DNA from: a virus
Length of the DNA: 20,379 nt
Virus record (IMG/VR): IMGVR_UViG_3300010392_000215
Coordinates: 1 to 20,379 of that record
Reading direction: 5' to 3' (one strand)
The notes beneath the pieces were generated by a model, which saw only the letters and a program-made list of their open reading frames with translations, had not been told where the DNA came from and did not search any database. The translations under genes were made by a program, and so were the position numbers. Every line of letters begins with the position of its first letter. The first letter of the stretch is position 1. Positions 1-20,379 of this stretch are shown one piece after another.

Positions 1-3000
1 GAACCTGCTCACTTGAATACGGTTTGCCTATCTTCTTAACATCCATATAAACAAGGTTAGACTCTCCTTCAAAGGGAGATGTACCAGGCCTGCCCGGAGT
101 AAGCTCTTTACTTTTTATCTCAACAGCATCCAAATCCAGATGAGAGGCCTTCATACTTGATACGCCGCTACGTTCCAGATTTTCCATGTATTCAAGATAT
201 TCAGACTCAAATAAACGGTAAAAATCTTCCTGTTCTTTTACCGGCAAAGCAGGAATGCGCCCGGTAACCTTTCTGGCCCCACCAATTATATCTTTAGCCC
301 CGAAACTTTTTAAAGGTTCGCCCAGTTTGCGGTGTAGATCCAAATTTTCCGAAAGCAGTTCAGCTACAATTTTATCACCGTGCTCATTCATAAAATCCAG
401 AGTGTCATTAGACGACACAGCAGAATCACTATCAGCCGTGGTGCTGGCATTAAGCGAAGCCATTTTCTTTTGCAGTACGGCGGCAGGTCTTTTCTCTGCG
501 GGAATATCTGCATTGAGAAGTGTGAAACCCGGCAGTTCCACCTGCCCGGTACGATGAATACGACCAAGGGTCTGCATAAAAGTATCAATATTCTTTTCTG
601 CCTGAGCAATCAGCATCCTACGCGGACGCTGATCCTTAAATTTCTCACTTGCATGCAGAGACAACCCCGTTGAACCGGCGCAATTGATGATAACAGCATC
701 AATAGAACCACCGTTGAATCCATCAATTACTGTGCGCGGAGCAGTTTTCTTTCTTTTATAATAAGTTGGTGCGTTCTTATCGCTATAGTCGATTGAGTGT
801 TCCCGACCTGTGATTTCATCAACCACATACCCGGAATTAGTAAGTTCCTGACGTATGAAATCGATAGGACTCATGGGAAGACCAGACAAATCAATATTAC
901 GAATATCGCGCTTGATTGAATTGAAATGACGCACTGCAACAGGACCGAGTTCAGAATCCGTGAGTCTTTTCTTTTGTTTCACTCCAAAAGGATCACCGAT
1001 CACTATTTCACGAGATCTCTCCAGATAGCGTTCAAGCAGATCCCCAAAATGAATATCAATGATTTGACCGGGAGCAATGTCGTTGTCTTTAGCATAGCTT
1101 TCAACCATAGAACCCATGGTGTTTGCTAAAGCAATAACGGGTTTCTCACCACGCTCAAGATGATTCCGTGCCATTTCAACCGTGGCTTCAGCCTTCAGAC
1201 ACAAAAGCATCTGATCAATCACGTTGTGCATCAGACTGGTGAAGTTCGTACTGGCTGCGCCAGCCTCACCGACAGAACCATCTGGAAGGATATTATTGCC
1301 GGCAGAAGAAAGCTCAGTGTCGATCGAGGCAAGAGCACCGGCTTTCAGATCGTCAAATACAATTATATCCTGCATGACCCTGCCGACCGCATCGGCAAGT
1401 TTCTTTGAGGCGGGGACCGTCTTGGTATCGAATGTCACCCCTTCGAACGATCGCTCCCTACGGACATACTGACCGGATTCGGTCAACATAGTGGCAACCA
1501 CCTGCTGCATCGGCACACCGCCGCTGGAAATAGCCTCACCAAGCTGGGAAACATCATCTACAGCCTTAACCATGTCCGTTTTAAAATAGAGATCCATAAC
1601 ATCCGGGCGCTTGGCAAAAGTCGCACTGGAATAAAAAGCACCGTATGGGCTTTCCTGAAGGATCTCGCGAACAAATTGAGAACGGGGCATCTTGCCCTTA
1701 GCAGGAGTGACGGAACTGCCGCCAGCGTTATGACTTTCATCAAGAATAAACATTGCACGGGAAGCAATGCCCCTTATGAATTGCTGACGAGGATTTTTCT
1801 TTTTACCTAAGGATTGGAGCTGATTATAGGTTGTGAAAACAACATCGTATTTATCGGTACGTTCAGCAGCAATATCCAGCATCAGCTTTTGTTTCTTAAC
1901 CGGGGAATGCTTTTCGGTTAAACTGCCATCACCCTTTTTAAATACGCTGTCTTTTTTCTCTATATTGGTGATAAAAATCCCTTCCTGCGATTCACCTATA
2001 TCATCCATATCACGGATCATATCACCATACAGGTTGGGTTTTTCAGTAAGAAAAACAGGGATCACCCCGTTACGCCGGGCGTAGCGAATTATAGCAGCAT
2101 TGACGCGACCTTTACCGATACCGGTCTGGTCTCCAATGATGAAACCTTTGCGTTCTTTGAGATTAGAGATGGCAAGACCTACAGCGTCCACCTGTTCGGC
2201 GGCAAGAACCTTGCCCAGCTCCTGTACGCTATAGCCCAGTTCGGAAGCTACAAAGCTATCAACATTGCCATATTTTGAATCAAGAAGGGATAGCGCGTTC
2301 TCTGTCGCATGCGCCATGTTTCGAGGAGTGAGAACTTCCATGGAAGTCCCCGACGAAGAGGGAGTATATCCGACTTGAAAATCTGTCTCTACCTCTCCAT
2401 TCCGTACCCTGCGATGGTTCTGGCCCACTCTTCCGCGCTCAGATCTTCTTGAAGCGGATCCGGATCGTCCTGCCGTCTCAGAACTCCTTTCAGCGGAAAC
2501 TCGTCCAGACTTGGAATCAGAGCTAGATTTTCTTTCATCTGCAATTTCAATGTCTCGTTTTGATCGACCAGAATCAGTCCTAAAATGTTCCGATTCTTCT
2601 CGCTCAGATCCCCGACCGTATCCCCGAACCTTTCGAATAGAATCATTTCCACTTCCTGCGCTACTTCCACCGGATTCTCTTCGCGCTCCAGCATCAGCTG
2701 CACTCTCAGAGACAGAAGAGTCCAATAATAGTCCCTTGTCTCCACTTCTGTTTTTCCTTCTGGAAGCCAGACTCTTGTTATCATCTGTGCTGCTGGATTC
2801 TCCTCCAGTTCCTTGGGAACTACGTAATACTTCCCTATCTTGGGTATATACGGATTGTTCATTGAATTCATCAAACTTTGTCTCCAGCTCCTCAAATGAT
2901 TCGTAAACACGGGGCAACTCAGCAGCAGGTTGCGGACGGGAGGATTTTCCGCGACCGTTAATCACGATAATATCAATCGGATATGCAGCCCCTTGTCTGC

Positions 3001-5863
3001 TGTACATTTTACCATCAAGGGTAAAATGGTCAACGACATTATATTCATTAAATAATGTGGAGTAAAAAGCTCTCTGTGTTTGAGCTCGATACTTTTTCTG
3101 TCTAGTCTCAGTATTACCCTTTTTACCGCCTATAATGATGACAGCTTTCCCGTCATCCTTCATGGCATGCAGGGCATGCAACGCAATCGCATGATCCAAT
3201 TCCTTAGTACGATATTGATTATTTATTTTCCATATCTTCGGCTTGCCATTTTCACGAAGCCGGCCAAAAGGAGGATTCATTACAACGGCATCAAATTTAC
3301 CTTCCGGCAGAAAGACCGTTGCATCATTATTATGGACAGTTTTAAATTTATGAAATTTTTTAAGATTAGAAACTCTGTCTTTACTAAGCTCATTAACTAA
3401 AACTTTGCCTTCCGCCGCAGCGAGAACAAGCATACCATTTCCGGCTGTAGGCTCATAAACCTTGCTCTGTTCAGAGATACCAGCAAGCTCGGAAGCCAGA
3501 AACGCAATCGGAGCCGGAGTACTGTAAGCCTGATTGTTAACAGAAGAACTAGAACGCACGCCAAGAACAGGCTGTTGCTCATAAAGGGCAACCATATCTT
3601 TAAATATTTCCTGACTGGAACGGCCCTGCTTACGTAACTCTCGTACACGCCCTTTTGCCGCAAGAACAGTCGCTACTTCGAAATCCTCATCAAAGGCCTT
3701 GGCTTCTTCAGAGCCAGGAAGAACTTCACGATCTATCCCTTTCTCGCCCAGATCATGCTTAATGAATTTTCGAGCTTCGGTAATTGATTTAAAATTACGC
3801 CCTGAAGCCAATTCGTTCACAACAGAATCCACTGTCATGTGCTGCACATCTTCTGATGCCTGACGCTTTGACGTCATGACGTCTTGACGTTGTGACGGTT
3901 CAGCTATTTCCATTTCGAAAACAGTTGGTCCAACTTCAATTGGCTCCAAAGATGAACCACCTTGCACAGGCACTGCCGGCAGATCCACAGCAACAGGATC
4001 TTGAGGTGCTGTAGCAGATCTTGTTTCGAGTTCCTGAACTGCCACATCCCAAGCATCTTTAAGAGACTGATCCCATTCACGGTTAAACTGCCCGGCATCA
4101 GCTGCATCCTGATCATAATCAGGATGAGCCACAACTTCAGAATCTACAGGACGGAATTGACCAACTCCATCAAAAGAAGCAGGAGCTACTGGATGCTCTA
4201 CAGGAAGAGCTTCAGGACTACGCGTTGGTTTACGAATCCCTTCACGCATCTGCCAAAGTTGATCCAGATCAGCTTCAGCAGGTTTACCGGCCACAACTTC
4301 CGGAGTGGCCATACCGAACATACCGGAAGCTTTACGAAACCTGTTTTCTCGATACTGGTCACTGAAACCGGTCATTCCACCGACTTTGCCTGAAACCACC
4401 TGAGGCGGGTTCTGCAACAACAGATCTATCGGTTCAAACGGAGCTGGAACTTGCGGATCTCCGGACACAGACAGCGACTCAGCACCAGCAAATTCAGCAG
4501 GCCTCCATCCGTCACGTATAGCCATTTCACGTTTGATGCGCTGCTCAAGATCAGGCTCAGGCCTGTGACGATAACGCTCCTGAATCCCTGCCTTCAAATC
4601 AGACATTCCAGCCGGGGACTCAAACTGCGAATCAATCACCTGCTGCATGCCAAAGCCGGATTGTTCAGTTCCCTGCTCTTTTTCCTGCTGGGAATAAAAT
4701 TCACTCATGCGCTGCAAAGGAGACCTTATATCCGGCTCTTTCCGCGCTTCCATGTTCTGACGGCTTGACGTCATGCCGTCATGACGTTCTAAAGCTTCGG
4801 CGTCACCTTCAAGCAGATCCACGGTTGCGCCGGCTTTGATCTGCTCAATCTGCTCGATGAAACTCTGATTGGAACTTTCTTCCTCTCCGGACAGACCAGC
4901 AGGGCCGGACATCACAGAACCACCAACACCAGTTAGTGCAGCAGGACCGATTACGTTCACGCCTTCTTTAGCTGCTTGTTTAACTCGCTTCCAGACACCG
5001 GGCTTCATTTCCCCGGTTTCAATATAATGTGCCAGATCCTTTGAGATAGACTCTGCCGGTTCTTCAGCCCATTCACTGATTCCTTCTACAGCACCGGAAC
5101 CAACATGTTTGGCTGTCTTAGCTGCAATCCCCTGCCCGGCCTTGGAAAACATTTTACCAAAGGAAAGAGCGTTCAGCCCGGCACTGGCCAAAGCCATGAG
5201 CTCGCCGGCACGAGCTGCTTCCTTTTCTGAACCACCGGCTTCCAAAACTTCCCGGTATGTGCTGGTCCCTTCCATTGCACCACCGCCTGCACCAGCTCCC
5301 AGAGCCTGCCCGATACGCGCAGCGCGTTCAAGAACCTTTGGAGTAAGCTGCAAAGCCTTCCCGCCAACCTGAACAACCTTACCAACAGCAGCTCCCGGAA
5401 TCATAGCCGCCCCCAGGGAAGGAGCTAAGTTACCAACCTGATACGACCACCAGTCACCGCGCTTCAATAGTGCTGGATTATCCACCACATTACCCTGCAA
5501 CTCCTTGGCAGGGGCATGGTATTCACGCAACGGCTTGTAGTAATCTGCGATCGCTTCCCCGGCTTCAGTCACAGACCCACTGTCCACCCGGTTACCCAGC
5601 CACTGTAGCCCAGCACCAAAAGATTCCCCCAGCCCGGCAGATCCGGCGGCAAGTCCATGATACATCCCCTCAGCGGAATCAATGGCTGAATCTACGAAAG
5701 GCATTCCAAAGCCGGATCGCTCCGGAACAGCGGTATCAGTATGCGCCTTAGCTCCAGACAAAAAGACCGGGCCTCCCTGATCAGGAGAACCCGGTGCATT
5801 CTGTGTGTTATGTTCAATTTCCAGTTCCCTGACAGCCTGGTCAAACAAGGCATTCATATCCAT
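1..5863 (-). CDS. Giant DarB-like polyvalent virion protein: N6-adenine methylase plus strawberry-notch helicase (3'-truncated by window edge)
   Basis: One frame is open from ATG 5863 (GGAGGG upstream, 2 bases after the previous stop) to the window edge, 1954 codons. Residues about 60-280 are Gly/Ala-rich with hydrophobic runs near 145-165, as in ejected internal virion proteins. Residues about 770-960 are a Rossmann N6-adenine methylase: SAM motif EPTAGNGML at 804-812 and catalytic NPPFGR at 863-868. Residues about 985-1160 are a Ser/Arg/Gly-rich linker. An SF2 helicase of the strawberry-notch type follows: GDQTGIGKGR with K1251, DESH at 1375-1378, GSTGLSLH at 1730-1737 and arginine-finger motif GRIHRTGQ at 1767-1774. 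P1 DarB, a virion protein protecting incoming DNA from type I restriction, and the 'polyvalent proteins' share this architecture. Position at the end of the ejection-protein block fits injection with the genome. Domain calls are firm; the anti-restriction role is inferred. No stop or frameshift was found at the motif positions checked, which are all in one frame. Confidence 0.88.
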   Translation of the reverse strand, partial: MDMNALFDQAVRELEIEHNTQNAPGSPDQGGPVFLSGAKAHTDTAVPERSGFGMPFVDSAIDSAEGMYHGLAAGSAGLGESFGAGLQWLGNRVDSGSVTEAGEAIADYYKPLREYHAPAKELQGNVVDNPALLKRGDWWSYQVGNLAPSLGAAMIPGAAVGKVVQVGGKALQLTPKVLERAARIGQALGAGAGGGAMEGTSTYREVLEAGGSEKEAARAGELMALASAGLNALSFGKMFSKAGQGIAAKTAKHVGSGAVEGISEWAEEPAESISKDLAHYIETGEMKPGVWKRVKQAAKEGVNVIGPAALTGVGGSVMSGPAGLSGEEESSNQSFIEQIEQIKAGATVDLLEGDAEALERHDGMTSSRQNMEARKEPDIRSPLQRMSEFYSQQEKEQGTEQSGFGMQQVIDSQFESPAGMSDLKAGIQERYRHRPEPDLEQRIKREMAIRDGWRPAEFAGAESLSVSGDPQVPAPFEPIDLLLQNPPQVVSGKVGGMTGFSDQYRENRFRKASGMFGMATPEVVAGKPAEADLDQLWQMREGIRKPTRSPEALPVEHPVAPASFDGVGQFRPVDSEVVAHPDYDQDAADAGQFNREWDQSLKDAWDVAVQELETRSATAPQDPVAVDLPAVPVQGGSSLEPIEVGPTVFEMEIAEPSQRQDVMTSKRQASEDVQHMTVDSVVNELASGRNFKSITEARKFIKHDLGEKGIDREVLPGSEEAKAFDEDFEVATVLAAKGRVRELRKQGRSSQEIFKDMVALYEQQPVLGVRSSSSVNNQAYSTPAPIAFLASELAGISEQSKVYEPTAGNGMLVLAAAEGKVLVNELSKDRVSNLKKFHKFKTVHNNDATVFLPEGKFDAVVMNPPFGRLRENGKPKIWKINNQYRTKELDHAIALHALHAMKDDGKAVIIIGGKKGNTETRQKKYRAQTQRAFYSTLFNEYNVVDHFTLDGKMYSRQGAAYPIDIIVINGRGKSSRPQPAAELPRVYESFEELETKFDEFNEQSVYTQDREVLRSSQGTGGESSSTDDNKSLASRRKNRSGDKGLLLDSSVSESAADAGARRESGGSSAGSGNDSIRKVRGYGRGSEREESEHFRTDSGRSKRDIEIADERKSSSDSKSGRVSAERSSETAGRSGSASRRSERGRVGQNHRRVRNGEVETDFQVGYTPSSSGTSMEVLTPRNMAHATENALSLLDSKYGNVDSFVASELGYSVQELGKVLAAEQVDAVGLAISNLKERKGFIIGDQTGIGKGRVNAAIIRYARRNGVIPVFLTEKPNLYGDMIRDMDDIGESQEGIFITNIEKKDSVFKKGDGSLTEKHSPVKKQKLMLDIAAERTDKYDVVFTTYNQLQSLGKKKNPRQQFIRGIASRAMFILDESHNAGGSSVTPAKGKMPRSQFVREILQESPYGAFYSSATFAKRPDVMDLYFKTDMVKAVDDVSQLGEAISSGGVPMQQVVATMLTESGQYVRRERSFEGVTFDTKTVPASKKLADAVGRVMQDIIVFDDLKAGALASIDTELSSAGNNILPDGSVGEAGAASTNFTSLMHNVIDQMLLCLKAEATVEMARNHLERGEKPVIALANTMGSMVESYAKDNDIAPGQIIDIHFGDLLERYLERSREIVIGDPFGVKQKKRLTDSELGPVAVRHFNSIKRDIRNIDLSGLPMSPIDFIRQELTNSGYVVDEITGREHSIDYSDKNAPTYYKRKKTAPRTVIDGFNGGSIDAVIINCAGSTGLSLHASEKFKDQRPRRMLIAQAEKNIDTFMQTLGRIHRTGQVELPGFTLLNADIPAEKRPAAVLQKKMASLNASTTADSDSAVSSNDTLDFMNEHGDKIVAELLSENLDLHRKLGEPLKSFGAKDIIGGARKVTGRIPALPVKEQEDFYRLFESEYLEYMENLERSGVSSMKASHLDLDAVEIKSKELTPGRPGTSPFEGESNLVYMDVKKIGKPYSSEQV
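2389..2871 (-). CDS. Overprinted small gene inside the giant protein's linker (unknown function)
   Basis: A 160-residue ORF in the +1 frame relative to the giant gene, lying wholly inside its methylase-helicase linker. ATG 2871 was chosen because GGAG lies 10 bases upstream and GAGGAG just before that; ATG 2910 would add 13 residues and ATG 2862 is a third option. The product is protein-like: 21 Leu (13 as CTG), Pro mostly CCG or CCA, alternating charged and hydrophobic positions predicting helices (residues about 48-80 and 95-120), no Cys and three Trp. The main frame over the same bases is low-complexity, with about 19 of 25 Arg codons being AGA, AGG or CGA. This contrast suggests that selection acts mainly on the +1 frame here. 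I recognise no family. Alternatives are a chance open frame or a product of +1 frameshifting from the methylase. Expression is unproven. Confidence 0.62.
   Translation of the reverse strand: MNSMNNPYIPKIGKYYVVPKELEENPAAQMITRVWLPEGKTEVETRDYYWTLLSLRVQLMLEREENPVEVAQEVEMILFERFGDTVGDLSEKNRNILGLILVDQNETLKLQMKENLALIPSLDEFPLKGVLRRQDDPDPLQEDLSAEEWARTIAGYGMER
2882..2893 (-). promoter_or_regulatory. Ribosome binding site candidate for the overprinted gene
   Basis: On the minus strand, GAGGAG (2893-2888) and GGAG (2885-2882) precede ATG 2871; the nearer one is spaced 10 bases from it. Both lie within codons of the giant gene encoding a Glu-Glu-Leu-Glu stretch, so they could be incidental. They nevertheless make 2871 the best-supported start of the embedded ORF. 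Confidence 0.45.
3861..3900. repeat. Five tandem 8-bp TGACGNNN repeats inside the giant gene
   Basis: On the plus strand five consecutive octamers begin with TGACG at 3861, 3869, 3877, 3885 and 3893; their last three bases are CTT, TCA, TCT, TTG and GTT. The second unit is the perfect palindrome TGACGTCA. The array lies just upstream of the methylase domain and is translated on the minus strand as RQDVMTSKRQ and flanking residues, at about residues 655-668. Because 8 is not a multiple of 3, gain or loss of one unit would shift the frame of the giant gene. Confidence 0.85.
4758..4789. repeat. Second TGACGNNN octamer cluster (four units)
   Basis: Four consecutive octamers at 4758, 4766, 4774 and 4782 read TGACGGCT, TGACGTCA, TGCCGTCA and TGACGTTC, so one unit has an A-to-C change. 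The second unit is again the palindrome TGACGTCA. The minus-strand translation is RHDGMTSSRQ at about residues 359-368, similar to the peptide of the other cluster about 890 bp away. The two clusters appear related by sequence, not only by period. Confidence 0.8.
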
Positions 5864-5865
5864 AA

Positions 5866-7413
5866 TTACCCTCCATACCTGCTTGAGCTTACTCCGGGTC
5901 TGGTCGGCACTGTCCGGATATCTTTCTGTTTATTCAAAATTCGTTTCGCACCTTCAACACCATATTGCTGGATGAGAGTCTTGATCTCATCCACCTGCTT
6001 ACGCTGGTCCGGATTTTCAGCCGGAATATGGCCGGAGCCCCGCTGAAGGATCTGCTGATAAATTCCAACCGCCTGCCCGGCAGCCTGTAATCTGGTTTTA
6101 TCGGCCTCGGTTTCAGGTTTCCACTGTCCCGAATTATAGCTTTCGACCAGCTTGGAGGCATCGTTAAAAGCATTGTTACCTTCATCTGTGAGTTCACCGG
6201 TAGTAAAATCAATCAAGGTTTTGCCTTTCTGATGGAACGGCTTGAGTGCATCACCAAGGGACTTGCGCATCTGAACCAATTGTTCAGCAGCCTGTTTATC
6301 CGGTATGTTTGCGGTTTCAGCCTGAATCTTTTCAGTCTCGGATTGAATCTTCCCGGTCGAGGCACGGGACTTGTCGGCATCAGCATATGTCTTTCCGGTC
6401 TGCGCTTTGGTATGGGCTATATCTGCCTGACCTTTAATAAGCCCCTGCTTTCTCTCACGCAGATCCATAGTGGTACGAACATACCCCGGTAGCCGATCCA
6501 AAGAATCAACCATCATTGTCTGACCGTTATCCTCATCCAGCACCATGAAATGCGTACCTTGAGAATAATCAAGACTGTTCTGGGGGACGGCCTGAATCAT
6601 ATGTCCGTCTTTATTCACCAGCGAGATCCACTTGGAAGGATCTTTTAGATTTTGAGCATTACCTAGTCTCGTAGCTTCCATATACCGGTCAGCAGCTCCA
6701 GCAAAAACAGGATTATATGTCCTGCCGCCCTGCATAGTCTTTTCCCCGGCTAGAAACTGTTGAATGACATTTCCGGTCTGCTCAATAGTCAGCCTGCGTC
6801 CTGTAGGAGCCCAGCCACCTTCTTTGTCGGATCGAAATTCTATGCCGTAAGTTTTGGAGCGCGGATCAAAGTCTGTGAGTCTATAAGGCATGGGAGCAAG
6901 TTCAGAAGCTCTTTTCATATCAATGACAGCCGCATCAAAATTGCCTTGGGAAATCTCATTTAACGCGCTACCACCTACCTTCCTAAATTCCTTATAGGTC
7001 TGATCAATCTTATGCATTCTGCGTTGCTTAAGGGCTTCTTTCCCGGCTTCAAACTTTGTAGCCAAGTCAGCAGCATGACCAAACGCAGAAATACCTACCA
7101 ATGTCTTAGGAGGCTCAATGGCATCAAAGTCCCAATCATTCTGTCTAAGTTTGCCCAGCAATCTTTCTGTTTCTTTTTGGACAGCACTATTAAAACGGAG
7201 CTGTTCTGCCTGCTGGAATTGACCGTATCGAGTGTATGCCTTCTGCTGGTTGCGCGAGCTAATTCCATCGGGCATTCCCTGACCAGAAGCCAAATTATTA
7301 TATGCGCGATCCACCTGCTGACCATCAGAATAGGCATTCATAGCATCAGTCAAACCGCCCATAGCACCCACAATCTGACCAGCTGTCTCATCTCCTAAAA
7401 AACCGAATCCCAT
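5866..7413 (-). CDS. Long helical internal virion (DNA ejection) protein candidate
   Basis: A 515-residue protein starting at ATG 7413 after a GGGGGG tract. It opens with a Gly-rich hydrophobic stretch (residues 1-25), then is mainly helical and charged. Residues about 330-375 form a short-period repeat of Thr-Gly-Lys and Ala/Glu-Thr units (AQTGKTYADADKS, STGKIQSETEK), a pattern seen in long coiled coils of phage internal proteins. No enzyme motif was found. It sits directly upstream of the giant enzyme (2 bases between stop and ATG) and downstream of two other low-complexity proteins, the place where P22-type phages encode ejection proteins. The ejection role is inferred from position and composition. 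Confidence 0.6.
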   Translation of the reverse strand: MGFGFLGDETAGQIVGAMGGLTDAMNAYSDGQQVDRAYNNLASGQGMPDGISSRNQQKAYTRYGQFQQAEQLRFNSAVQKETERLLGKLRQNDWDFDAIEPPKTLVGISAFGHAADLATKFEAGKEALKQRRMHKIDQTYKEFRKVGGSALNEISQGNFDAAVIDMKRASELAPMPYRLTDFDPRSKTYGIEFRSDKEGGWAPTGRRLTIEQTGNVIQQFLAGEKTMQGGRTYNPVFAGAADRYMEATRLGNAQNLKDPSKWISLVNKDGHMIQAVPQNSLDYSQGTHFMVLDEDNGQTMMVDSLDRLPGYVRTTMDLRERKQGLIKGQADIAHTKAQTGKTYADADKSRASTGKIQSETEKIQAETANIPDKQAAEQLVQMRKSLGDALKPFHQKGKTLIDFTTGELTDEGNNAFNDASKLVESYNSGQWKPETEADKTRLQAAGQAVGIYQQILQRGSGHIPAENPDQRKQVDEIKTLIQQYGVEGAKRILNKQKDIRTVPTRPGVSSSRYGG

Positions 7414-7422
7414 ACAGCCCCC

Positions 7423-7926
7423 CTACGACATTAAATATATTCCAAGACCAATGGCAGCACCCACAGCTGCACCGATGGGTCCAGCAGAAGAACCTGCGGC
7501 GGCTCCACCGGCGACAGTTCCACCGGCAGCAGCTCCACCGGCAGCCGCTCCACCGGCGGCAGCTCCACCAGCAGCAGCTCCACCGGCGGCAGCTCCACCG
7601 GCAGCAGCTCCACCTGCGGCAGCTCCACCGGCAGCAACTCCAGCAGCAGCTCCACCGGCAACAGCTCCACCGGCGGCAACTCCAGCAGTGGTTCCAGTTG
7701 TCAGTGCAGTGCCACCGATTATGCCTGCCTCAGTCATAGCTGTTGATGCAGACATCCCCATCATACCGCCCTGAAATCCTGAAACAGCAGCTCCTGTAGC
7801 AGACTTCCCCGGCTTCTTTTGAGTTGGGGTTTTCCGGCTCATCATTGAAGCAGTATTGGAAGCAGCCGCCATACCGGACAGGGCTTTATCACCAGGGTTC
7901 TCAACTTCAAACATTCCTAAAGGCAT
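7423..7926 (-). CDS. Glycine-zipper repeat protein, candidate membrane-active ejection protein
   Basis: A 167-residue protein with a strong GGAGGG site before ATG 7926. The N-terminus (1-50) holds a basic stretch (RKTPTQKKPGK). Residues about 84-142 are a tandem array of the pentapeptide Ala-Ala-Gly-Gly-Ala, giving overlapping GGAAAG and GxxxG patterns. The C-terminus (about 145-167) is hydrophobic and small-residue rich, with GAAVGAAIGLGIYLM. Glycine zippers pack helices in membranes and occur in some pore-forming and phage ejection proteins. The neighbours are other candidate ejection proteins. Pore function is inferred; an alternative is an unstructured spacer produced by repeat expansion. 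The proline- and leucine-rich ORFs in the other frames of this stretch are repeat shadows. Confidence 0.65.
   Translation of the reverse strand: MPLGMFEVENPGDKALSGMAAASNTASMMSRKTPTQKKPGKSATGAAVSGFQGGMMGMSASTAMTEAGIIGGTALTTGTTAGVAAGGAVAGGAAAGVAAGGAAAGGAAAGGAAAGGAAAGGAAAGGAAAGGAAAGGTVAGGAAAGSSAGPIGAAVGAAIGLGIYLMS
7502..7678. repeat. 15-bp tandem repeat array (glycine-zipper coding)
   Basis: On the plus strand the unit GCTCCACCGGCRGCA repeats with few substitutions: nine consecutive 15-bp units at 7502-7636, one shortened 12-bp unit at 7637-7648, and two further units at 7649-7678. Length changes keep the frame, so copy number can vary without destroying the protein. Variation between units is mostly synonymous, pointing to selection for the encoded Ala/Gly pattern. 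Confidence 0.88.
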
Positions 7927-7935
7927 AAATCCCTC

Positions 7936-8679
7936 CTAAGCCATCCCGATGGATGATGCCGCGCCAAGACGTCTAAAATTTTCTTCCTCAGCATTCCTTC
8001 GCGCCTTCGTCCTTGCCCCCGCAGCACTCTGCGCCTGGGAAAGAGTTAAATCCTTCTGCATGGCCGCAAACCTTCCGGAATTTGTATTAAGACCGGCACG
8101 AGAAAAATTACGCTGCGCCTTTGCTCCGGCCATTCCGTATCCATGGCTTACATCCGCCTCGGCCTGAGAGACACGACTATCAACATCAACTCCCTTAAGG
8201 GCCTGATCCATAAGCTCCTGCCTGACTCCATACTGCTTCTTCTTTGCTTCGGTCTGGAGAGGCAACAACTCGCGCTTTGATGCAATTTGCTCTTTGGATA
8301 GTCCAGTTTCTAGGGGTATGAGTTCACGCCTGGCTCCAATCTGTTCTTTGGATAAATCAGTCTGAAGAGGAAGAAGTTCACTCTGTGCGGCTATCTGCTG
8401 TTTCATCAAATCGGCTTGATAAGGAATAAGCTCACTGTTTGCGGCAATCTGTTTCCGCTCCATGGGCTGATAGTCTGATTTCCAGAAATCAAAATACTCT
8501 TCAGCCATTCCCTGCTGGGATTCGTAAATTGTAGCCATACGAGCGTTGTATTCTTCATCAACCGCATCACCGCCTCCGCCACCTTTACAAAGAGCTACAG
8601 GGCCATCATAATCATAAGATTCTTCATGCTCGATCTCGCCGGACGCGATATCAATAACGAGCTTAGTGTAAACTTTCAT
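7936..8679 (-). CDS. Repeat-containing virion protein with a recurrent phage N-terminal motif
   Basis: A 247-residue protein whose ATG 8679 lies 17 bases inside the preceding gene, with GGGAG 9 bases upstream. Residues 1-33 (MKVYTKLVIDIASGE then SYDYDGPVALCKG) match a short N-terminal signature that I recall from several unrelated-looking phage structural proteins. A Gly5 linker follows. Residues about 76-155 hold four to five 18-residue repeats around QIAxxxELLPLQTDLSK, predicted amphipathic helices. The C-terminal third is rich in Ala, Ser and Arg (NFSRAGLNTNSGR). It occupies the position of the P22 ejection proteins gp7 or gp20, but no homology to them is visible. A structural or ejection role is inferred from context; biochemical function is unknown. 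Confidence 0.62.
   Translation of the reverse strand: MKVYTKLVIDIASGEIEHEESYDYDGPVALCKGGGGGDAVDEEYNARMATIYESQQGMAEEYFDFWKSDYQPMERKQIAANSELIPYQADLMKQQIAAQSELLPLQTDLSKEQIGARRELIPLETGLSKEQIASKRELLPLQTEAKKKQYGVRQELMDQALKGVDVDSRVSQAEADVSHGYGMAGAKAQRNFSRAGLNTNSGRFAAMQKDLTLSQAQSAAGARTKARRNAEEENFRRLGAASSIGMA
8215..8454 (-). repeat. 18-residue (54-bp) helical repeat array
   Basis: Residues 76-155 of the 247-residue protein contain repeat units starting at Lys76, Lys93, Lys111, Lys129 and Lys147, spaced 17, 18, 18 and 18 residues. The consensus is K-Q/E-Q-I-A/G-x3-E-L-L/I-P-L-Q/E-T-D/G-L-S. The repeats are clear in protein but diverged in DNA, suggesting old duplication followed by selection on the helix pattern. 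Confidence 0.8.
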
Positions 8680-9202
8680 ACAACAACTCCCTCGTAAGGC
8701 TGATCAGAGCTACGTTTTCGCTTTTCCCTTCACGGGCAATCCATGCACCGTTAGGGACTTCACCACAGATTTTACCACCGCATTTTTTTACGAACTTGAT
8801 CGCAACTTTATTCCGGACAGGAATGAAACCAAGTAACATGTCATAAACATAGTTCCCGGCCTTATCCTTCATGTGCAGGATGCAATTGTTGACAAAAAGG
8901 CCCATTTCAAAAATTTGTTTTCTTGGACAAGCATCAAACACAACCCAGTGCATACGGGCAAAGCGACCTTCCTGCCTGTTCAACCAGACAAGAGCAACGG
9001 CCACATCATCCTTTAAAACAACCCAGCAGACAGACTTCTTAAGCGCGGCTACAAACTCAGCGGCATTACGCACCGTCCCTTCATAAAAAACGATCTCGGC
9101 ATGGCCTTCGTCAACGCACTGTTGATAAAGACCTGCCATGTACCGATCCGGATATGTCCGAACCCCATCCCATTCCATGTATGGCCACATTTCAAAACTC
9201 AT
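8663..9202 (-). CDS. GNAT-like protein of the tail/ejection block (P22 gp14-position protein)
   Basis: A 179-residue protein starting in an ATGA overlap with the preceding 62-residue ORF. The pattern resembles phage GNAT-fold proteins: an N-terminal helix with DRYMAGLYQQCVDEG, a strand plus VALVWLNRQ, then RMHWVVFDACPRKQIFEMG, where an acetyl-CoA pyrophosphate loop would lie, and a C-terminal GFIPVRNKVAIKF segment as in the last GNAT strand. I cannot confirm the canonical Q/R-x-x-G-x-G/A loop, so catalytic activity is doubtful. P22-type phages place a protein of similar size and unclear role (gp14) before their ejection genes. GNAT-like fold: moderate. Enzymatic role in modifying host or virion proteins: speculative. 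Confidence 0.55.
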   Translation of the reverse strand: MSFEMWPYMEWDGVRTYPDRYMAGLYQQCVDEGHAEIVFYEGTVRNAAEFVAALKKSVCWVVLKDDVAVALVWLNRQEGRFARMHWVVFDACPRKQIFEMGLFVNNCILHMKDKAGNYVYDMLLGFIPVRNKVAIKFVKKCGGKICGEVPNGAWIAREGKSENVALISLTRELLYESLH

Positions 9203-9387
9203 CGTTTCACCGCCTGCTTTCGGGCTTTGTCCTCGCTGACGAGCCCCAGTTCAACAAGATCATTGAAGGTCACACCACGGTTCATGGGATTTGGTATGCC
9301 GTAGACAAAACTCCGTATAATCGTGCTCAGCTGACGCAAAAAGTGAAGCACATTACCTTCGCGTACTTCAGGAAGCATCGGTTTCAT
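9199..9387 (-). CDS. Small 62-residue phage protein, unknown
   Basis: A short ORF translationally coupled on both sides by ATGA overlaps (9384-9387 with the tail hub gene, 9199-9202 with the GNAT-like gene). The product is basic, with a helical segment FLRQLSTIIRSFVYG, the motif NPMNRGVTFNDLVELGLV and a Lys/Arg-rich tail. There is no Cys and no convincing membrane segment. The tight coupling supports a real gene; it may be a small tail-assembly factor, but I recognise no family. Confidence 0.6.
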   Translation of the reverse strand: MKPMLPEVREGNVLHFLRQLSTIIRSFVYGIPNPMNRGVTFNDLVELGLVSEDKARKQAVKR

Positions 9388-11090
9388 AAAAGATCCCCCA
9401 GACCGGTAGCCATTGCCACGCGCGAAACAGGAATATCGGTTGTTATTTCCATCTGGAAACGGGTAGCCAGATATCCGGAAGGCAGGATAAATGGCTCTGG
9501 TCCAGTCACCTTTTTGAAATAGACCTCTCGCCCATCAGCCTTGAGAACAAAATGAACCTCGCCCTTAGGCAGGTTCCGGTAAATGCTTTGGGAATCCCCG
9601 CCAAGGCAGACAGAGCCAGCCCCCTCAGAGCCCAAACAAGAATATTGAAGTTCTTCTTTAAGAAACGGATATTCAGGCGCGGAATCATAATCCGCAACCA
9701 GCACGGCGGCTTCCATGTTTATCGGCTCACGTACACGCATTTCACCGGACACCCACTGACTACGCAGTGTGAATTCCGATCCGTCCCACAAACAAATCGC
9801 GGTCTTGTTCACAACAGGATAAGCCACGTGCAAAAGCCGCCCTTCCGGCTCAACAGCCAGAGCTTTGCAATGAAAACCAAGGTTCGACAGCAACAAGGTG
9901 GAAGGATTGAATACAAATCCATTTGAGGGAGCATGAAAACAAATATACTGCCCGGCATACCAGACAGCATTAAAAGTCTCCGGCTGAAGCTTGCGCCAAT
10001 CTTTTTCCGTAAATACACCGGAGGTCAGTCTGCGCGGAGCAGCACCTGGTTCAACAAGATAAAGACCGTCCAGACTCGGAAAGATTACTCCCAAAGGAGA
10101 AGCGGCAACGCCGGCAGCGGACGTACAGGGCAGATACCCATCAAGCTTGGAAGGAACCGCAAGAGCGGGATCATCAACTGTAATTGTATGGACGTTGGCT
10201 TCTGTAAGGACCACCAAGGTATTCCCGGCTGCTTCCATAGCAATGATCCTGTGCGGAACTGACATGGAATATCCATCCGGCCATGCATGAGGGTAACCCG
10301 GCTCTGAAAGGAATATTTCGTTGCCCTTGAATCCGGCAAACATGTTACCGGGTAAGGCAGTCAAACCGCTCAGAGCTTCAGGAGCTGGAATCCAGTAGCG
10401 GGACGGCAGCACCTCAGCCAGATCAGAATCAGCCTTAGTATCGGTGTAAGAAGTCTCTTCTGCCTGCACTTCAGACACAAACTGGAACTCGGTTGTTTCC
10501 GTCCCGGTGACAGTCCGGTAGATACGCATCAAGCTCACGGGCCTGTAACCTGCTGCGGATGAATTCATACCTGAGATAGTGACTGTCTGCCCTTTCTGCA
10601 CCTCCACATTTTGTGATGGAGCTGATGGCGGTCCCTCTTCGCCCAGATCGGAAACAAGAGTGTAAACATAAACACGGGAAACAACTTCTGCGCCGTCTTC
10701 AGGAGTCCCACTAACTGCAACAGCAGGAGCTGCAATAGGAGCTGGTACGCCTAGAACATAACGATTTACCAAAGAGTTCGCGTCTGTTTCATCTTCTGAA
10801 CAGAAGATAAACGCTCCCTGTGCGTCAGTTCCATAAATCCGTTTCTTTAAATCCCCGGCTATCGGGCCTTCACGCAGGGTCACTCGCTCCGGCCAGGTCA
10901 ACCATTCATCACGATAACGAAAAATAGTGGTAGCCTTCCCCGGCACAGAGCCAACCAACCCCGGCCCTCCAAGAGGACGGATCTCGCCGGACTCCAGCAA
11001 ACAATTTACGGCTTTCTCAGCCTGCCCCTGCTCCAGCAAATGAAGAGCAAGAGCTGGTTTCATGCCGGAAAAAACATTAAGCTCAAACAT
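9384..11090 (-). CDS. Tail hub / nozzle-like beta-rich structural protein
   Basis: A 568-residue protein starting at ATG 11090. It opens with LNVFSGMKPALALHLL and a segment listing acquired boundary residues (AVNCLLESGEIRPL), then alternates short beta strands with repeated W-W or Y-Y landmarks such as IFRYRDEWLTWP, FAGFKGNEIFLSEPG, LVVLTEANVHTI, GVIFPSLDGLYLVEPG and YAGQYICFHAPSN. These look like blades of a beta-propeller. A central Ig/fibronectin-like portion (residues about 115-215, VYVYTLVSDLGEEGPPSAPS) is inserted. The architecture fits podovirus tail nozzle or gp10-type tail hub proteins that cap the head-tail channel. Sequence similarity to P22 gp10 is not visible, so the exact orthology is open. 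Confidence 0.65.
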   Translation of the reverse strand: MFELNVFSGMKPALALHLLEQGQAEKAVNCLLESGEIRPLGGPGLVGSVPGKATTIFRYRDEWLTWPERVTLREGPIAGDLKKRIYGTDAQGAFIFCSEDETDANSLVNRYVLGVPAPIAAPAVAVSGTPEDGAEVVSRVYVYTLVSDLGEEGPPSAPSQNVEVQKGQTVTISGMNSSAAGYRPVSLMRIYRTVTGTETTEFQFVSEVQAEETSYTDTKADSDLAEVLPSRYWIPAPEALSGLTALPGNMFAGFKGNEIFLSEPGYPHAWPDGYSMSVPHRIIAMEAAGNTLVVLTEANVHTITVDDPALAVPSKLDGYLPCTSAAGVAASPLGVIFPSLDGLYLVEPGAAPRRLTSGVFTEKDWRKLQPETFNAVWYAGQYICFHAPSNGFVFNPSTLLLSNLGFHCKALAVEPEGRLLHVAYPVVNKTAICLWDGSEFTLRSQWVSGEMRVREPINMEAAVLVADYDSAPEYPFLKEELQYSCLGSEGAGSVCLGGDSQSIYRNLPKGEVHFVLKADGREVYFKKVTGPEPFILPSGYLATRFQMEITTDIPVSRVAMATGLGDLL

Positions 11091-11573: not shown

Positions 11574-13919
11574 CTACCCCGCTATAATCTTTTTAAAGTT
11601 ACCCGCCGCCGGAGAGAGGTTCTTTGTAAAAAAGAATGCTAAGCTATTCTGATTATCTACGCGCATAGCCTTCTGCCCGGTATTGGAATCAAAAACTGTC
11701 ACCGGATCGCCGGTCCACCAATCTGTGCCGTCATAAACCATGACCTCTGCCTGAGCATTGGAAATTCCGTAAACGATAACAACGGTTTCCTCATTGGGCG
11801 AAGCCAGAACAGGACGCACGGCATTGTTGCCCGCTTTGGTCAGGAACTCATTTCCAGCAGTCCAAGCACCACCCACGCGGTTAAAGACCTTCCCGCGAAC
11901 CCGGTCGTCAGATAAATCCCCTTCGTAATAGGAGAGCACAAAACGGTCGGCGGACATTTTAATCAGCTCCAGATACTGTGCTGACTGTGCAAGGGATTCA
12001 TAGCTGGTGATCAGCTGGGCATCGCCCCATGCAGAAGAGCTGTCCGCCCTTGAAAGGGAATAAAGCTTCACGTTGAACGGGGGACCGCCGTAGGAGTACG
12101 CGAAAATGATTTCATTCTCGGACATGCCCACGATTGCGGTTTCGCTGCCGTTATTCTCAGTGCCGACAAAAAGTTCCTTCTTGGTCAGCACGTTGGAAGT
12201 ATTGGACGGTCTGGTGATATCCGAAACGACCGTGCGGTAAGTGTTTGCGGAACGTTCTTCCCTATAAATACAAGGCGTGCCCAGTTCGTTACCTTCAGCA
12301 GCTTTGACACTTCCGAGGTAGCCGTAACTGGAAAGAGGAATCCCCGAACCGGACACAGCCCAATCAGCCTCGGTTGCGCCTTTGGCTAAGAGCCTACAAG
12401 CTACCGCTGCGTCAAGGTTAGGGTCAGGATCGAAAAAAGCCAAAACAGAGTTAAGTCCCATCGGAACAAGAGCAGAAAGACCGTTGTTATTCACATCAAC
12501 CGGGCTGACATCAAAAGGAGTTGCGGCGGAGAAATCAGCAGCTTCCGCACTGCCACGGGTGAGGGCCGCACACTTAAGGGTAAGCCCGGAACCCAGACGA
12601 AAAGCGGTCAAAAAGCAGGTATCCGAAACCTTGCACAGGGACAGGTTGTAAGGAAGATCCGCAAGGAAGGAATTAATCTGACTGTCCAGCGCGGCGGTGT
12701 AATCTTTCCAGACGTTGAAGGCTTCCGCGCTGGTGAAGGAAATCATGGAACTGGCAATGTCGTAGACCAGCGCGCCATTACTCATCCTGACTTCTCGCCA
12801 AAGTTTGTAAACGGTATTTACGGCCATACCCTTTGGAATTTTCCAACTATTCTTATTCACTATGTCATCGATGCTGGATACAACAGCGTGGGCTTTGGTT
12901 CCGTCTGGAGAAACGAACCAACTGGTGCTGACATGGTTGAATGCCGCATCACTGGCAGTTGCAGTACCGGCCGTAACCGTAGGAGTCTCTTTTACCCCCA
13001 CTGCTCCATCAGCAAGACTGGTTATCTCAAGACCGTCAATGGTGAACGGACAATCTGTGACCAGCACCGAATGAATTGCCGGCTCAGATACAAACTCACC
13101 AAGTCTGCGTCTTGAAATCCGTATTTCATGATTTTCATCAGCTTCAACTGTTCCCATAGTCCAAACAACAGTACTGCCGGAGACTTCAGCGGAACCAAAT
13201 CCGCGCACATCCAATTCATATTCATTCAGGAGTTCTTCAGAATGATCATCGATTGTCAGGGTAATAACTGACCTTTCAACAGCGGTATCCGGTCCGCTAA
13301 GCAGCGGAGACGGAGTTTTATATCCCTGCAACTCTGAATTGGTCAGCGACCGTTTAGCGAGGGCATTCGGATCAAGGCCGGCTTCAACCAGCTTAAGTGC
13401 TTCAGGAACAACAGCCTCTTTCACATGGACGGTTGTAACTTCATCATCAACGGATACGTAATCAACAAAACCGATATCAGTACCAGAGTTAAACCTGAGA
13501 GCCCTGTTTTCCGTAAAGAAGCCTGTGAAATCACCGGTAAGGGTAAAGCTTGTTGCTGTTGCATACGTGGAAAGAACCAGCTCACCAGCGACATCTTTCG
13601 GACGCATCCAGCATTCCCCGGCCATCTCTTCCCACGTTCCGGCAGTCATACGCAGATCAATGCTGGCTCCGACAGGGAAAGCCAGAGCTGTAAATCCTTC
13701 CACACCCCGGACGACAGTAAGCTTGTTACCGTTAACAGCTGTCACCCTGACCAACTCTGTTGCTCTGGTAGCCCGGTTGACCACGGCACAAACGAAACCA
13801 TCCCCTTCCAGCAGATTCGGAAATACTCCGGCATGCTCAGCAGGAATAGTAAGCTCTGTGGCCACATCATCAATTTCAGCTGTCAGATAACTTTCAGCTA
13901 AGCTCTTCAATGTTATCAT
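11574..13919 (-). CDS. Large tail fibre / adhesin-like protein
   Basis: A 781-residue protein starting at ATG 13919. Residues about 15-110 match a common virion-attachment domain: ELTIPAEHAGVFPNLL, then FVCAVVNRATRATELVRVT, then KLTVVRGVEGFTALAFPVGA. Residues about 115-200 hold a further beta module. The middle (about 205-390) has Ig-like portions with ITLTIDD, WTMGTVEAD and TSWFVSPDGT. The C-terminal half (about 420-781) shows propeller-like repeats, e.g. FLTAFRLGSG, IIFAYSYGGPPF and RFVLSYYEGD, each roughly 50-70 residues apart, as in sugar-binding adhesins. It is the best receptor-binding candidate in the window, followed by an assembly-like gene. No glycoside hydrolase or lyase motif was seen. 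Confidence 0.6.
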   Translation of the reverse strand: MITLKSLAESYLTAEIDDVATELTIPAEHAGVFPNLLEGDGFVCAVVNRATRATELVRVTAVNGNKLTVVRGVEGFTALAFPVGASIDLRMTAGTWEEMAGECWMRPKDVAGELVLSTYATATSFTLTGDFTGFFTENRALRFNSGTDIGFVDYVSVDDEVTTVHVKEAVVPEALKLVEAGLDPNALAKRSLTNSELQGYKTPSPLLSGPDTAVERSVITLTIDDHSEELLNEYELDVRGFGSAEVSGSTVVWTMGTVEADENHEIRISRRRLGEFVSEPAIHSVLVTDCPFTIDGLEITSLADGAVGVKETPTVTAGTATASDAAFNHVSTSWFVSPDGTKAHAVVSSIDDIVNKNSWKIPKGMAVNTVYKLWREVRMSNGALVYDIASSMISFTSAEAFNVWKDYTAALDSQINSFLADLPYNLSLCKVSDTCFLTAFRLGSGLTLKCAALTRGSAEAADFSAATPFDVSPVDVNNNGLSALVPMGLNSVLAFFDPDPNLDAAVACRLLAKGATEADWAVSGSGIPLSSYGYLGSVKAAEGNELGTPCIYREERSANTYRTVVSDITRPSNTSNVLTKKELFVGTENNGSETAIVGMSENEIIFAYSYGGPPFNVKLYSLSRADSSSAWGDAQLITSYESLAQSAQYLELIKMSADRFVLSYYEGDLSDDRVRGKVFNRVGGAWTAGNEFLTKAGNNAVRPVLASPNEETVVIVYGISNAQAEVMVYDGTDWWTGDPVTVFDSNTGQKAMRVDNQNSLAFFFTKNLSPAAGNFKKIIAG

Positions 13920-16468: not shown

Positions 16469-17482
16469 TTATGCTTCCGGAGGAATTTCAGTAACCGCAA
16501 CTTCAAGGCGGACAAGCCATGCGTCATTAAGAATGGCACTGGCATAGTAAGTTATCCAACCGACACTACCCCGCTGACCGAGTTTGTCGCTTTTACTGGG
16601 GGTCTCGGGGTTCACAACCTTGGGAACAACGGATTCCTTACCCTTGAGAGCCACATCACCGTAAGCATCGGCTCCGAAAATGTAGATAGGGTAAACATCG
16701 GCGTTGGTTCCGGACTCGGAAAGCATCTCAGTTCCAGAAGCAGCTTTTGCACCACCGGCATCGACAAGAGGCTCAATGGAAGTTGAAACCACGTAACGGA
16801 CGTCTTCAACCTTACCGATCTCATTCTCATAAGGAGTAAGCTGTCCGTATTCTTCCACCGGAACAAAACCGGGCATTTCACGAATATCAGATTCACAATC
16901 GGAATGAGTGATTCCAATAAAGGAAGCGGCAACAGCTTTTGTTCCGTACTTGACGCTGGAAGACATGACCTTGGTTACTTTGCGGGCCTTCTGCCGCTTA
17001 AGAGCACGGGTTGCCAGCCTCTGCACACTCTTGGTGATGGGCTTAACAACCGTTCCACGGGATGTGCCGCCGGAATAAATGACGTTAGTCCCGGCACCTA
17101 CAGTTCCTCCCAGAACCATATCGAGAGTCTGCCCGGCCTGTTCACCAAGAATGCTCATGGACTCCTGAAGAACGGGATCTTCGTGAGTATCCTGAATCAC
17201 ATCAGTCAGCTCGATGTAATCACCGTACTGCTTCAGGGTAGCGGTAACGTCAGTCTTGGTAAGCTTCTTACCGGCAGGTGTTACACCTTCAACCAACGGA
17301 ACAGTTGCCGGCGGAAGAGCGTTGTACCTGCGCCACTTAACAATCTGCCCTTTGTTCTTGGGCATCTTGAGAGACTGGGCAAATCTCCCGAAAATATTAT
17401 AATTGTCCGCCCTCTTAAGAAAACCGGGAACTGAATATCCGGCTGTTCTGGGGCTGATATCGCCATACATGGTAGTTGTCAT
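16469..17482 (-). CDS. Major capsid protein, N4-gp56 family
   Basis: A 337-residue protein. ATG 17482 has AGGAG at spacing 5, and this site overlaps the scaffold stop codon. The N-terminus DISPRTAGY, FLKRADNYNIFGRF, KGQIVKWRRYNALPPATVPLVEGVTP, then TLKQYGDYIELTDVIQDTHEDPVL and a helix with GEQAGQTLDMV are characteristic of the N4-gp56 (HK97-fold) capsid family. The later region shows FIGITHSDCESDIREM and FVPVEEYG, with C-terminal GSVGWITYYASAILNDAWLVRLEV. Length fits that family. The scaffold lies immediately upstream, as usual. No separate protease is visible here. Confidence 0.92.
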   Translation of the reverse strand: MTTTMYGDISPRTAGYSVPGFLKRADNYNIFGRFAQSLKMPKNKGQIVKWRRYNALPPATVPLVEGVTPAGKKLTKTDVTATLKQYGDYIELTDVIQDTHEDPVLQESMSILGEQAGQTLDMVLGGTVGAGTNVIYSGGTSRGTVVKPITKSVQRLATRALKRQKARKVTKVMSSSVKYGTKAVAASFIGITHSDCESDIREMPGFVPVEEYGQLTPYENEIGKVEDVRYVVSTSIEPLVDAGGAKAASGTEMLSESGTNADVYPIYIFGADAYGDVALKGKESVVPKVVNPETPSKSDKLGQRGSVGWITYYASAILNDAWLVRLEVAVTEIPPEA

Positions 17483-18699: not shown

Positions 18700-19012
18700 C
18701 TTCAGCTCCTTCGTTAAATCCGTCTTCAAAGCTTCCTGCGGTGTCGATACCCAGCTTGACCAGCTGCAACTCAATGTGCTTGTCCTTGCCGTCCGGTTGC
18801 GCTCTGGCTCCACAAACAAAAGCCCTGGCTTCAAGCTTCACTGTAGAACCGACCTTCAGCTCACTGGGCTTTAGCCCCAACTTGGAAACAACCTCATCAT
18901 CAAGACTGAGCCGCAAGCCCCACGGAAATTCTTCATGTTCCGACTCAACGACAGCTGGCGACCCCTTGCCCTTCTTCTTTTCCGGCTTATGCCGCATGTC
19001 CACGAGCTTCAT
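18689..19012 (-). CDS. Capsid staple-like / decoration protein
   Basis: A 107-residue protein whose ATG 19012 overlaps the portal stop region by 26 bases and is led by AAGGAGG at spacing 5. The N-terminus MKLVDM followed by a basic RHKPEKKKGKG stretch, then FPWGLRLSLDDEVVSKLGL, VGSTVKLEARAFVCGARA, HIELQLVKLGI and an acidic tail (residues about 92-107), matches the small protein beside N4-gp56-type capsid genes often annotated as a capsid staple protein. Such proteins bind the capsid surface and reinforce it. Family identification is from recall of this motif order; a role in stabilising the head is inferred from the capsid type downstream. Confidence 0.65.
   Translation of the reverse strand: MKLVDMRHKPEKKKGKGSPAVVESEHEEFPWGLRLSLDDEVVSKLGLKPSELKVGSTVKLEARAFVCGARAQPDGKDKHIELQLVKLGIDTAGSFEDGFNEGAEDDD
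18706..18711 (-). promoter_or_regulatory. Shine-Dalgarno site deciding the start of the 76-residue ORF
   Basis: Minus-strand AAGGAG is 6 bases before ATG 18699. It lies inside the end of the upstream acidic gene. This makes the shorter 76-residue product much more likely than a start at 18834. Confidence 0.65.
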
Positions 19013-20379
19013 GCGGACCTCCTTCCGGCATCAATGCACCGGCCTGTTGCTGGAGCATGGACAGCAAATGTTGCTGAACATCCACACCCTTATTTTTCAA
19101 TTCTTCAACCAATGCTTGAATATTTGCCCGTGCTGTTTCGGCCAGACGTTCACGTTCCCAGCTTTGCTTTTCTCGTGCTGAACGCAGCACACCGTCAGGC
19201 AAATCAAGGTTTTTACAGATTTCCTTGATCAGCTTTTCGTCATCGATCCAGCCTTCAAAACGGGGATTGTCGGTGATGGCCGCAATGGTCTGCATGCGTT
19301 CAAGCTGCACTTCCTTGGCCATGAGCACGGAAGTTCCGGTAGCAATGACTTCAAAGTCACCCTTGATGTCCTGCCGGGGATTGAACTGCATGTTCCAGAA
19401 ATACATTTTCTTGAAGAACGGACGGGTAATGTTCTCATCATGAGATTTGACCAGATCCTTGAGAATCTGGTGCGCTGCTCCAATGAGCATGGAAAGCCCA
19501 CGGGCAGTCTTACCGGCTCCGCGCATCTGGGAACCGTCACCGCCCATGAAGCGCGGCACGGACATATCGTCCACCATGTCGTTAAAGACCCGGACCAGAG
19601 CCATGAGCTCGTTGGTGTAGGAAGGGACAGAGAAAAATTTGAGAGCTTTGTTCATGTCTTCCACAGAACGGAAAGGCCAGAACTTGAAAGCATAGATGTC
19701 GCGCGGATCTTCATCCTGAGTAAACGCGCTCATGTTAGCCGCAACCTGCGGTCCGCATGAAACAGAGGCATTATCCAGCAGCATGCGCATAGCCGAGTTC
19801 AAAGCCTTCTGAGGATGACGCAGCAGCTTGGGCAGGCCATCCCCCCAGATTGAATCTTCATCTTCCACGAAGTAATCAAACTGATAAGGAATGGTCGCGC
19901 CCTCAAGGGGATTGATAACCGCCTTGATGACCTTATCGCCCAACATCCAGACATTAGCCGGGAAGATCTCGGAAAGATCTTCGTCTGGAATCTGGATGCC
20001 CACGGATGCAAGCTGATCTCCGGTCAAAGTTCCCCAGAACTCATAGACCCGGTAACGCTTATCCATCTTGCGGGTTTCACCGCTACCGATTTTCTGTTGC
20101 AGCTTCAGGGCCTTGTATGAGTCCAGATCGCCATCCTTATTATCCAGCAGGTAGGCACGGATAACGTCTTCCTTAAAACCGGGGAACTCCTTTAGATCCA
20201 AGACTTGCTGGCGGTTGTAGATATGGTCCTGAAAAATATATTCGCAATCCCCAAGGCGAGTCGCATTGGCGTCAGGGTATGCATTCCAAACTGAGACATC
20301 TTCATAAAATGGACGCAGCTCTGTGGATTCAGTTTTCTGCAACTTCCAGCTACCGTCTTCGGTAACGGCGTATGCCTCA
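18987..20379 (-). CDS. Portal protein (5' end beyond the window)
   Basis: The reading frame is open through the right edge, giving 463 C-terminal residues in the window; TTG at 20342 is internal, not a start. Visible landmarks include LRPFYEDVSVWNAYPDANATRLGDC, a helical segment VLDLKEFPGFKEDVIRAYLL, NPLEGATIPYQF, GLPKLLRHPQKALNSAMRMLLDNA, GGDGSQMRGAGKTARGLSML and FFKKMYFWNMQFNP. A glutamine-rich coiled coil and an EARGHAA tail close it. These match the wing, stem and crown layout of portals of short-tailed phages. The position just before the staple, scaffold and capsid genes agrees. A terminase would be expected outside the right edge. Confidence 0.85.
   Translation of the reverse strand, partial: EAYAVTEDGSWKLQKTESTELRPFYEDVSVWNAYPDANATRLGDCEYIFQDHIYNRQQVLDLKEFPGFKEDVIRAYLLDNKDGDLDSYKALKLQQKIGSGETRKMDKRYRVYEFWGTLTGDQLASVGIQIPDEDLSEIFPANVWMLGDKVIKAVINPLEGATIPYQFDYFVEDEDSIWGDGLPKLLRHPQKALNSAMRMLLDNASVSCGPQVAANMSAFTQDEDPRDIYAFKFWPFRSVEDMNKALKFFSVPSYTNELMALVRVFNDMVDDMSVPRFMGGDGSQMRGAGKTARGLSMLIGAAHQILKDLVKSHDENITRPFFKKMYFWNMQFNPRQDIKGDFEVIATGTSVLMAKEVQLERMQTIAAITDNPRFEGWIDDEKLIKEICKNLDLPDGVLRSAREKQSWERERLAETARANIQALVEELKNKGVDVQQHLLSMLQQQAGALMPEGGPHEARGHAA
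19018..19024 (-). promoter_or_regulatory. Strong Shine-Dalgarno site for the staple-like gene, inside the portal gene
   Basis: Minus-strand AAGGAGG is 5 bases before ATG 19012 and is itself part of codons near the portal C-terminus. It is the closest to the anti-Shine-Dalgarno consensus of the sites I examined here, consistent with a protein needed in many copies per head. Confidence 0.75.

Follow-up and report, generated by a model that had tools for sequence, protein, structure and literature searches.

A giant methylase-helicase gene at the end of a late operon

The very large gene at the left edge of this virus record raises two questions: what kind of methylase-helicase protein it encodes, and whether that protein enters a new host together with the DNA. 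The window analysed here is the entire 20379-base virus record, itself part of a phage genome. The giant gene (2..5863, minus strand) begins with an ATG at 5863 and is stop-free up to the window edge; 1954 aa are present in this open frame, and the C-terminus lies past the left contig edge. Pfam analysis of the protein identified AAA_34 (1.4e-25), Helicase_C_4 (6e-22), ResIII (4e-9) and N6_Mtase (2e-5), with the Strawberry-notch ATPase (AAA_34, Helicase_C_4) located C-terminal to the methylase. The key motifs were found at residues 804 (EPTAGNG), 863 (NPPF), 1244 (GDQTGIGKG), 1375 (DESH) and 1768 (RIHRTGQ). An earlier note on this DNA had proposed an N6-adenine methylase and a Strawberry-notch helicase with intact motifs, and these Pfam matches and motif positions bear that proposal out: the giant is one frame joining the two enzymes.

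Four regions could be delimited in the protein, all encoded on the minus strand. A Gly/Ala-rich N-terminal module (residues ~165-300; 4964..5371) is weakly common to other giants and has no clear transmembrane helix. The gamma-class N6-adenine methylase (residues ~780-985; 2909..3526) contains the TP motif (STP 781) in addition to EPTAGNG and NPPF, and is followed by a Ser/Arg/Glu/Gly-rich linker (residues ~986-1160; 2384..2908) and by the Strawberry-notch helicase (AAA_34 and Helicase_C_4, residues ~1220-1841; 341..2206) with its Walker A motif GDQTGIGKG, DESH and RIHRTGQ. A TP motif together with NPP(Y/F) is the expected mark of gamma-class N6 methylases (PMC5512222). Methylase residues S781, T782 and P783 and N863, P864, P865 and F866 are conserved in alignments with relatives, and the catalytic residues of both enzymes are invariant or almost invariant. 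Since frames ~36-53% identical occur in 48 viral contigs and the catalytic residues are conserved, the giant frame is not a chance one.

The N-terminal part had been described as membrane-prone, which the hydropathy profile contradicts: the best 19-aa window scored 1.39 at residue 146, below the transmembrane-like level. The N-terminal 700 aa as a whole have no relative in phages or in counterpart genes, and no recognisable counterpart in Burkholderia phage JC1; the Gly/Ala-rich module alone matched, weakly but significantly, the giant of one other contig (L051; E 3e-5, against 0.12 for the best of 20 shuffles), whose module in turn matches that of a further giant (L052) at 1.6e-12. No LPD36 domain was found before the methylase at E<=1, either in the window protein or in the archetype, P1 DarB.

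The minus strand of the window is one late operon, with the portal gene (18987-20378, frame open at the contig end) first and the giant gene last. In operon order, the portal gene is followed by a scaffold-like gene, the major capsid protein gene (16469..17482, phrog_1357), genes for phrog_399 and phrog_437 structural proteins, and a fibre-like gene (11574-13919). A phrog_511 'internal virion protein' or head closure gene (9384..11090) is the counterpart of BcepIL02 gp63 and JC1 gp61. It is followed by a gene for a 179-aa protein (8663..9202) in the slot of the relatives' GNAT acetyltransferase, a likeness of position alone, and by a virion structural protein gene (7936..8679, phrog_8003) that is the counterpart of JC1 gp64. 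The next gene (7423..7926) encodes an Ala/Gly-repeat protein with a weak match to JC1 gp67 that is possibly due to low complexity; a 15-base tandem repeat of 12.4 copies (7502-7684) lies within this ORF and is the source of the Ala/Gly repeats. Directly upstream of the giant is a 515-aa gene (5866..7413) in the slot of JC1 gp68, which is virion-associated. The start codon of the giant lies 2 bases past the stop of this gene, and the giant gene therefore belongs to the late operon. The suggestion that other candidate ejection proteins precede the giant holds in part. The products of 9384-11090 and 7936-8679 are virion proteins by PHROG, but that of 5866-7413 has no detectable relative in PHROG, in phages or among counterpart genes including those of JC1.

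The motor is of the Strawberry-notch family and not that of DarB

The giant had been called DarB-like. By Pfam, the helicase of P1 DarB is of the SNF2 class and that of BcepIL02 gp70 gives weak SNF2/Helicase_C matches, whereas the window protein matches AAA_34 and Helicase_C_4 and no SNF2 domain. Comparison of helicase profiles with hhalign gave 5.5% over 37 residues for the Strawberry-notch set against P1 and 0.3% against the Bcep type; the depth of this negative is limited by the small profiles (P1 by itself; three sequences of the Bcep type), but under equal limits the positive control of Bcep type against P1 gave 99.8% over 638 residues. The methylase profiles of the Strawberry-notch set aligned with those of P1 (96%, E 3e-9) and the Bcep type (96.6%), and those of Bcep type and P1 with each other at 99.1%; as the comparison covered only these methylases of the gamma class, the match to P1 may reflect general similarity within it. 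On these profiles the predicted motor is of another family than that of P1 DarB, and only the methylase part shows a distant similarity. Kinship to DarB as a whole is not supported, and the label fits the window giant as an analogy, not as membership.

P1 DarB resembles the window giant in having a methylase followed by an SF2 motor, and it protects incoming DNA. However, it has an SNF2-type helicase, other neighbouring genes and only 2255 aa. Its methylase motif IV reads NVPF (L008:10469-17236, minus strand), while NPPF is found in the Strawberry-notch giants and in the three Bcep-type giants with a match. Since P1 DarB itself carries NVPF and not NPPF, its mechanism is not transferable to the window giant untried. 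BcepIL02 gp70 and JC1 gp69 are likewise giants with a methylase and a helicase at the equal place in gene order, but BcepIL02 has an SNF2-type helicase and an N-terminal transglycosylase (SLT), whereas the window giant is of the Strawberry-notch type with no SLT match.

The closest description is that of the polyvalent methylase-helicase dyad in its Strawberry-notch subtype, of which Iyer et al. (2017, PMC5512222) report no more than 'a few instances'. It comprises a TP/NPPF N6 methylase and a Strawberry-notch ATPase in huge proteins of mobile elements, with LPD and ART domains that occur here in relatives of the window giant. By its sequence the window giant is a protein of this subtype, a kind already described. 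Comparison with defence systems returned methylase matches only, the best being to mad2 (E 3e-14) over the methylase part alone, and no relative with a solved structure was found at E<=0.01.

Relatives in viruses and plasmids, and the missing C-terminus

A search with the whole protein found no viral relatives; with the helicase part as query, 48 viral contigs were matched. The matching frames comprise giants, of 2286-5855 aa where complete, and, in a clade of their own, Strawberry-notch helicases that stand alone and measure ~1011-1024 aa (L072-L095). NPPF, Walker A and DE(S/A)H were present in all 21 Strawberry-notch proteins compared, and R..R.GQ in 20. The only annotated phages matched were Bacteroides phage BS-TP4, through gp3, and one Acinetobacter phage (two records). 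BS-TP4 gp3 (5391 aa) is the best relative from a cultured phage, with the same dyad and 32% identity over residues 734-1954; it also carries LPD38, InPase and ddrB-ParB, but differs in its neighbours (it precedes the portal gene) and in its N-terminal domains. Several frames in phages and viral contigs are very long (L002:1511-17686, 5391 aa; L090:893-18457, 5855 aa; G011, 6825 aa) and exceed the 5007-aa protein that has been called the longest known phage protein (PMC8402733).

Among plasmids, the helicase was detected in 775 of 72,556 records, 337 of them predicted to be conjugative, and a matching methylase lay within the helicase protein in three of four inspected examples. The fused protein of pAQ6 (WP_049761781) is 49% identical to the window giant in the methylase and 47% in the helicase, but these plasmid proteins lack the giant N-terminal part and have no virion genes nearby.

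No LPD, ART or InPase domain was found by Pfam in the 1954 aa present, the C-terminus being absent from the contig. Among 12 aligned members (the window giant and 11 others), Pfam identified LPD38 in six and InPase in five. GGDEF, Zeta_toxin, FtsK_gamma, LPD37 and ART-PolyVal were each seen in one member. The chain continues past the helicase query for 1567-2393 aa in 10 of the 11 aligned giants, and for only 594 in the other, so the window giant is probably missing ~1500 aa. The expectation that its C-terminal part carries more polyvalent domains is a likely one, since relatives carry LPD37, LPD38, InPase, ART-PolyVal and others. One contig (L009) is 99.9% identical to the window over 10494 bases and continues the genome on the upstream side of the portal gene; extension by this route reached upstream genes only, and not the C-terminus of the giant.

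Gene order suggests packaging in the virion

The window follows the Bcep22-like virion order of major head protein, phrog_399, phrog_437, fibres and phrog_511 protein, with the giant last. The end of this order (phrog_511, small genes, a ~250-370-aa virion protein, a ~390-530-aa gene and the giant) is common to the window, to BcepIL02 and JC1, and to five viral records with Strawberry-notch giants (G021, G028, G030, G034 and G044). In JC1, gp61, gp64, gp67, gp68 and the giant gp69 were all detected in CsCl-purified virions by mass spectrometry (PMC9144972). Because the same slot in JC1 encodes a giant found in purified virions, the window giant is likely to be packaged too, as its location in the virion block had been taken to indicate; the parallel is one of position. 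In one other viral contig (L057), the gene adjoining the giant matches a 'DNA ejection protein' (E 3e-4). For P1 DarB, the first 30 residues suffice to target a reporter into the capsid (PMC9024508).

A possible exchangeable motor slot

We examined 12 viral records carrying related capsid genes (48-54% identical). None contained a Strawberry-notch domain, and eight had, within a very large frame, an SNF2 match that passed the curated cut-off. In two of the eight (G007 and G012), very large frames lie downstream of the phrog_511 gene. In the helicase tree, members bearing phrog_511 do not form one clade, implying at least two changes. That SNF2-type giants occupy the late region of the phages whose capsid genes are closest suggests that helicase types may have been swapped in one slot, though some of the records are fragments. 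We tentatively propose, at somewhat less than even odds, that the Bcep22-like virion module ends in an exchangeable cargo slot, where SNF2 and Strawberry-notch motors, each fused to an adenine methylase, take one another's place.

Proposed function and alternatives

The reading that we favour, by a little over an even chance, is that the giant of this phage, with its Bcep22-like (short-tailed) virion order, would be a late product that is loaded into the head and then ejected with the DNA into the new host. There the translocase would travel along the entering double-stranded DNA as the methylase modified its adenines, and this modification would protect the genome against restriction; other early functions may come from the C-terminal domains that are missing here. 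The proposed ejection, the methylation of the entering DNA and the antirestriction effect are extrapolated from known families (PMC5512222). Type I restriction had been named as the target, yet nothing in the analysis links the giant to type I enzymes specifically.

The giant could instead act inside the producing cell, being made late and methylating progeny DNA before packaging without itself being ejected. A methylase alone needs no packaging, and fusions of methylase and Strawberry-notch helicase are also carried by plasmids, which lack a virion; fusion to huge polyvalent scaffolds, the place after the virion genes and the presence of the JC1 counterpart in virions argue against this explanation, which we consider unlikely. 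Of similarly low probability is that the giant is ejected with its helicase serving mainly in DNA entry, as a motor for pulling or clearing the genome, and with methylation secondary. The use of either an SNF2 or a Strawberry-notch motor by head-related phages fits selection for a DNA translocase, and the Gly/Ala-rich N-terminal module also favours such a role, but the methylase motifs are kept throughout, down to NPPF in each of the 21 proteins checked. True orthology to DarB, with the giant acting on type I enzymes in the way of P1 DarB, is very improbable despite equal domain order and distant methylase similarity, as the helicase profiles do not match and tblastn found no P1 or Bcep22-like match to it.

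Packaging is directly testable in a cultured relative, Bacteroides phage BS-TP4. The Strawberry-notch family is better known from animals, where it is associated with Notch signalling. Recognition of a Strawberry-notch motor corrects the 'DarB-like' label across an entire set of phage giants. The presence of two motor families in the same slot offers a natural comparison for the role of the ejected motor. If the slot is indeed exchangeable, the selected function would be the ejection of some motor-methylase with the genome, and not any single enzyme.
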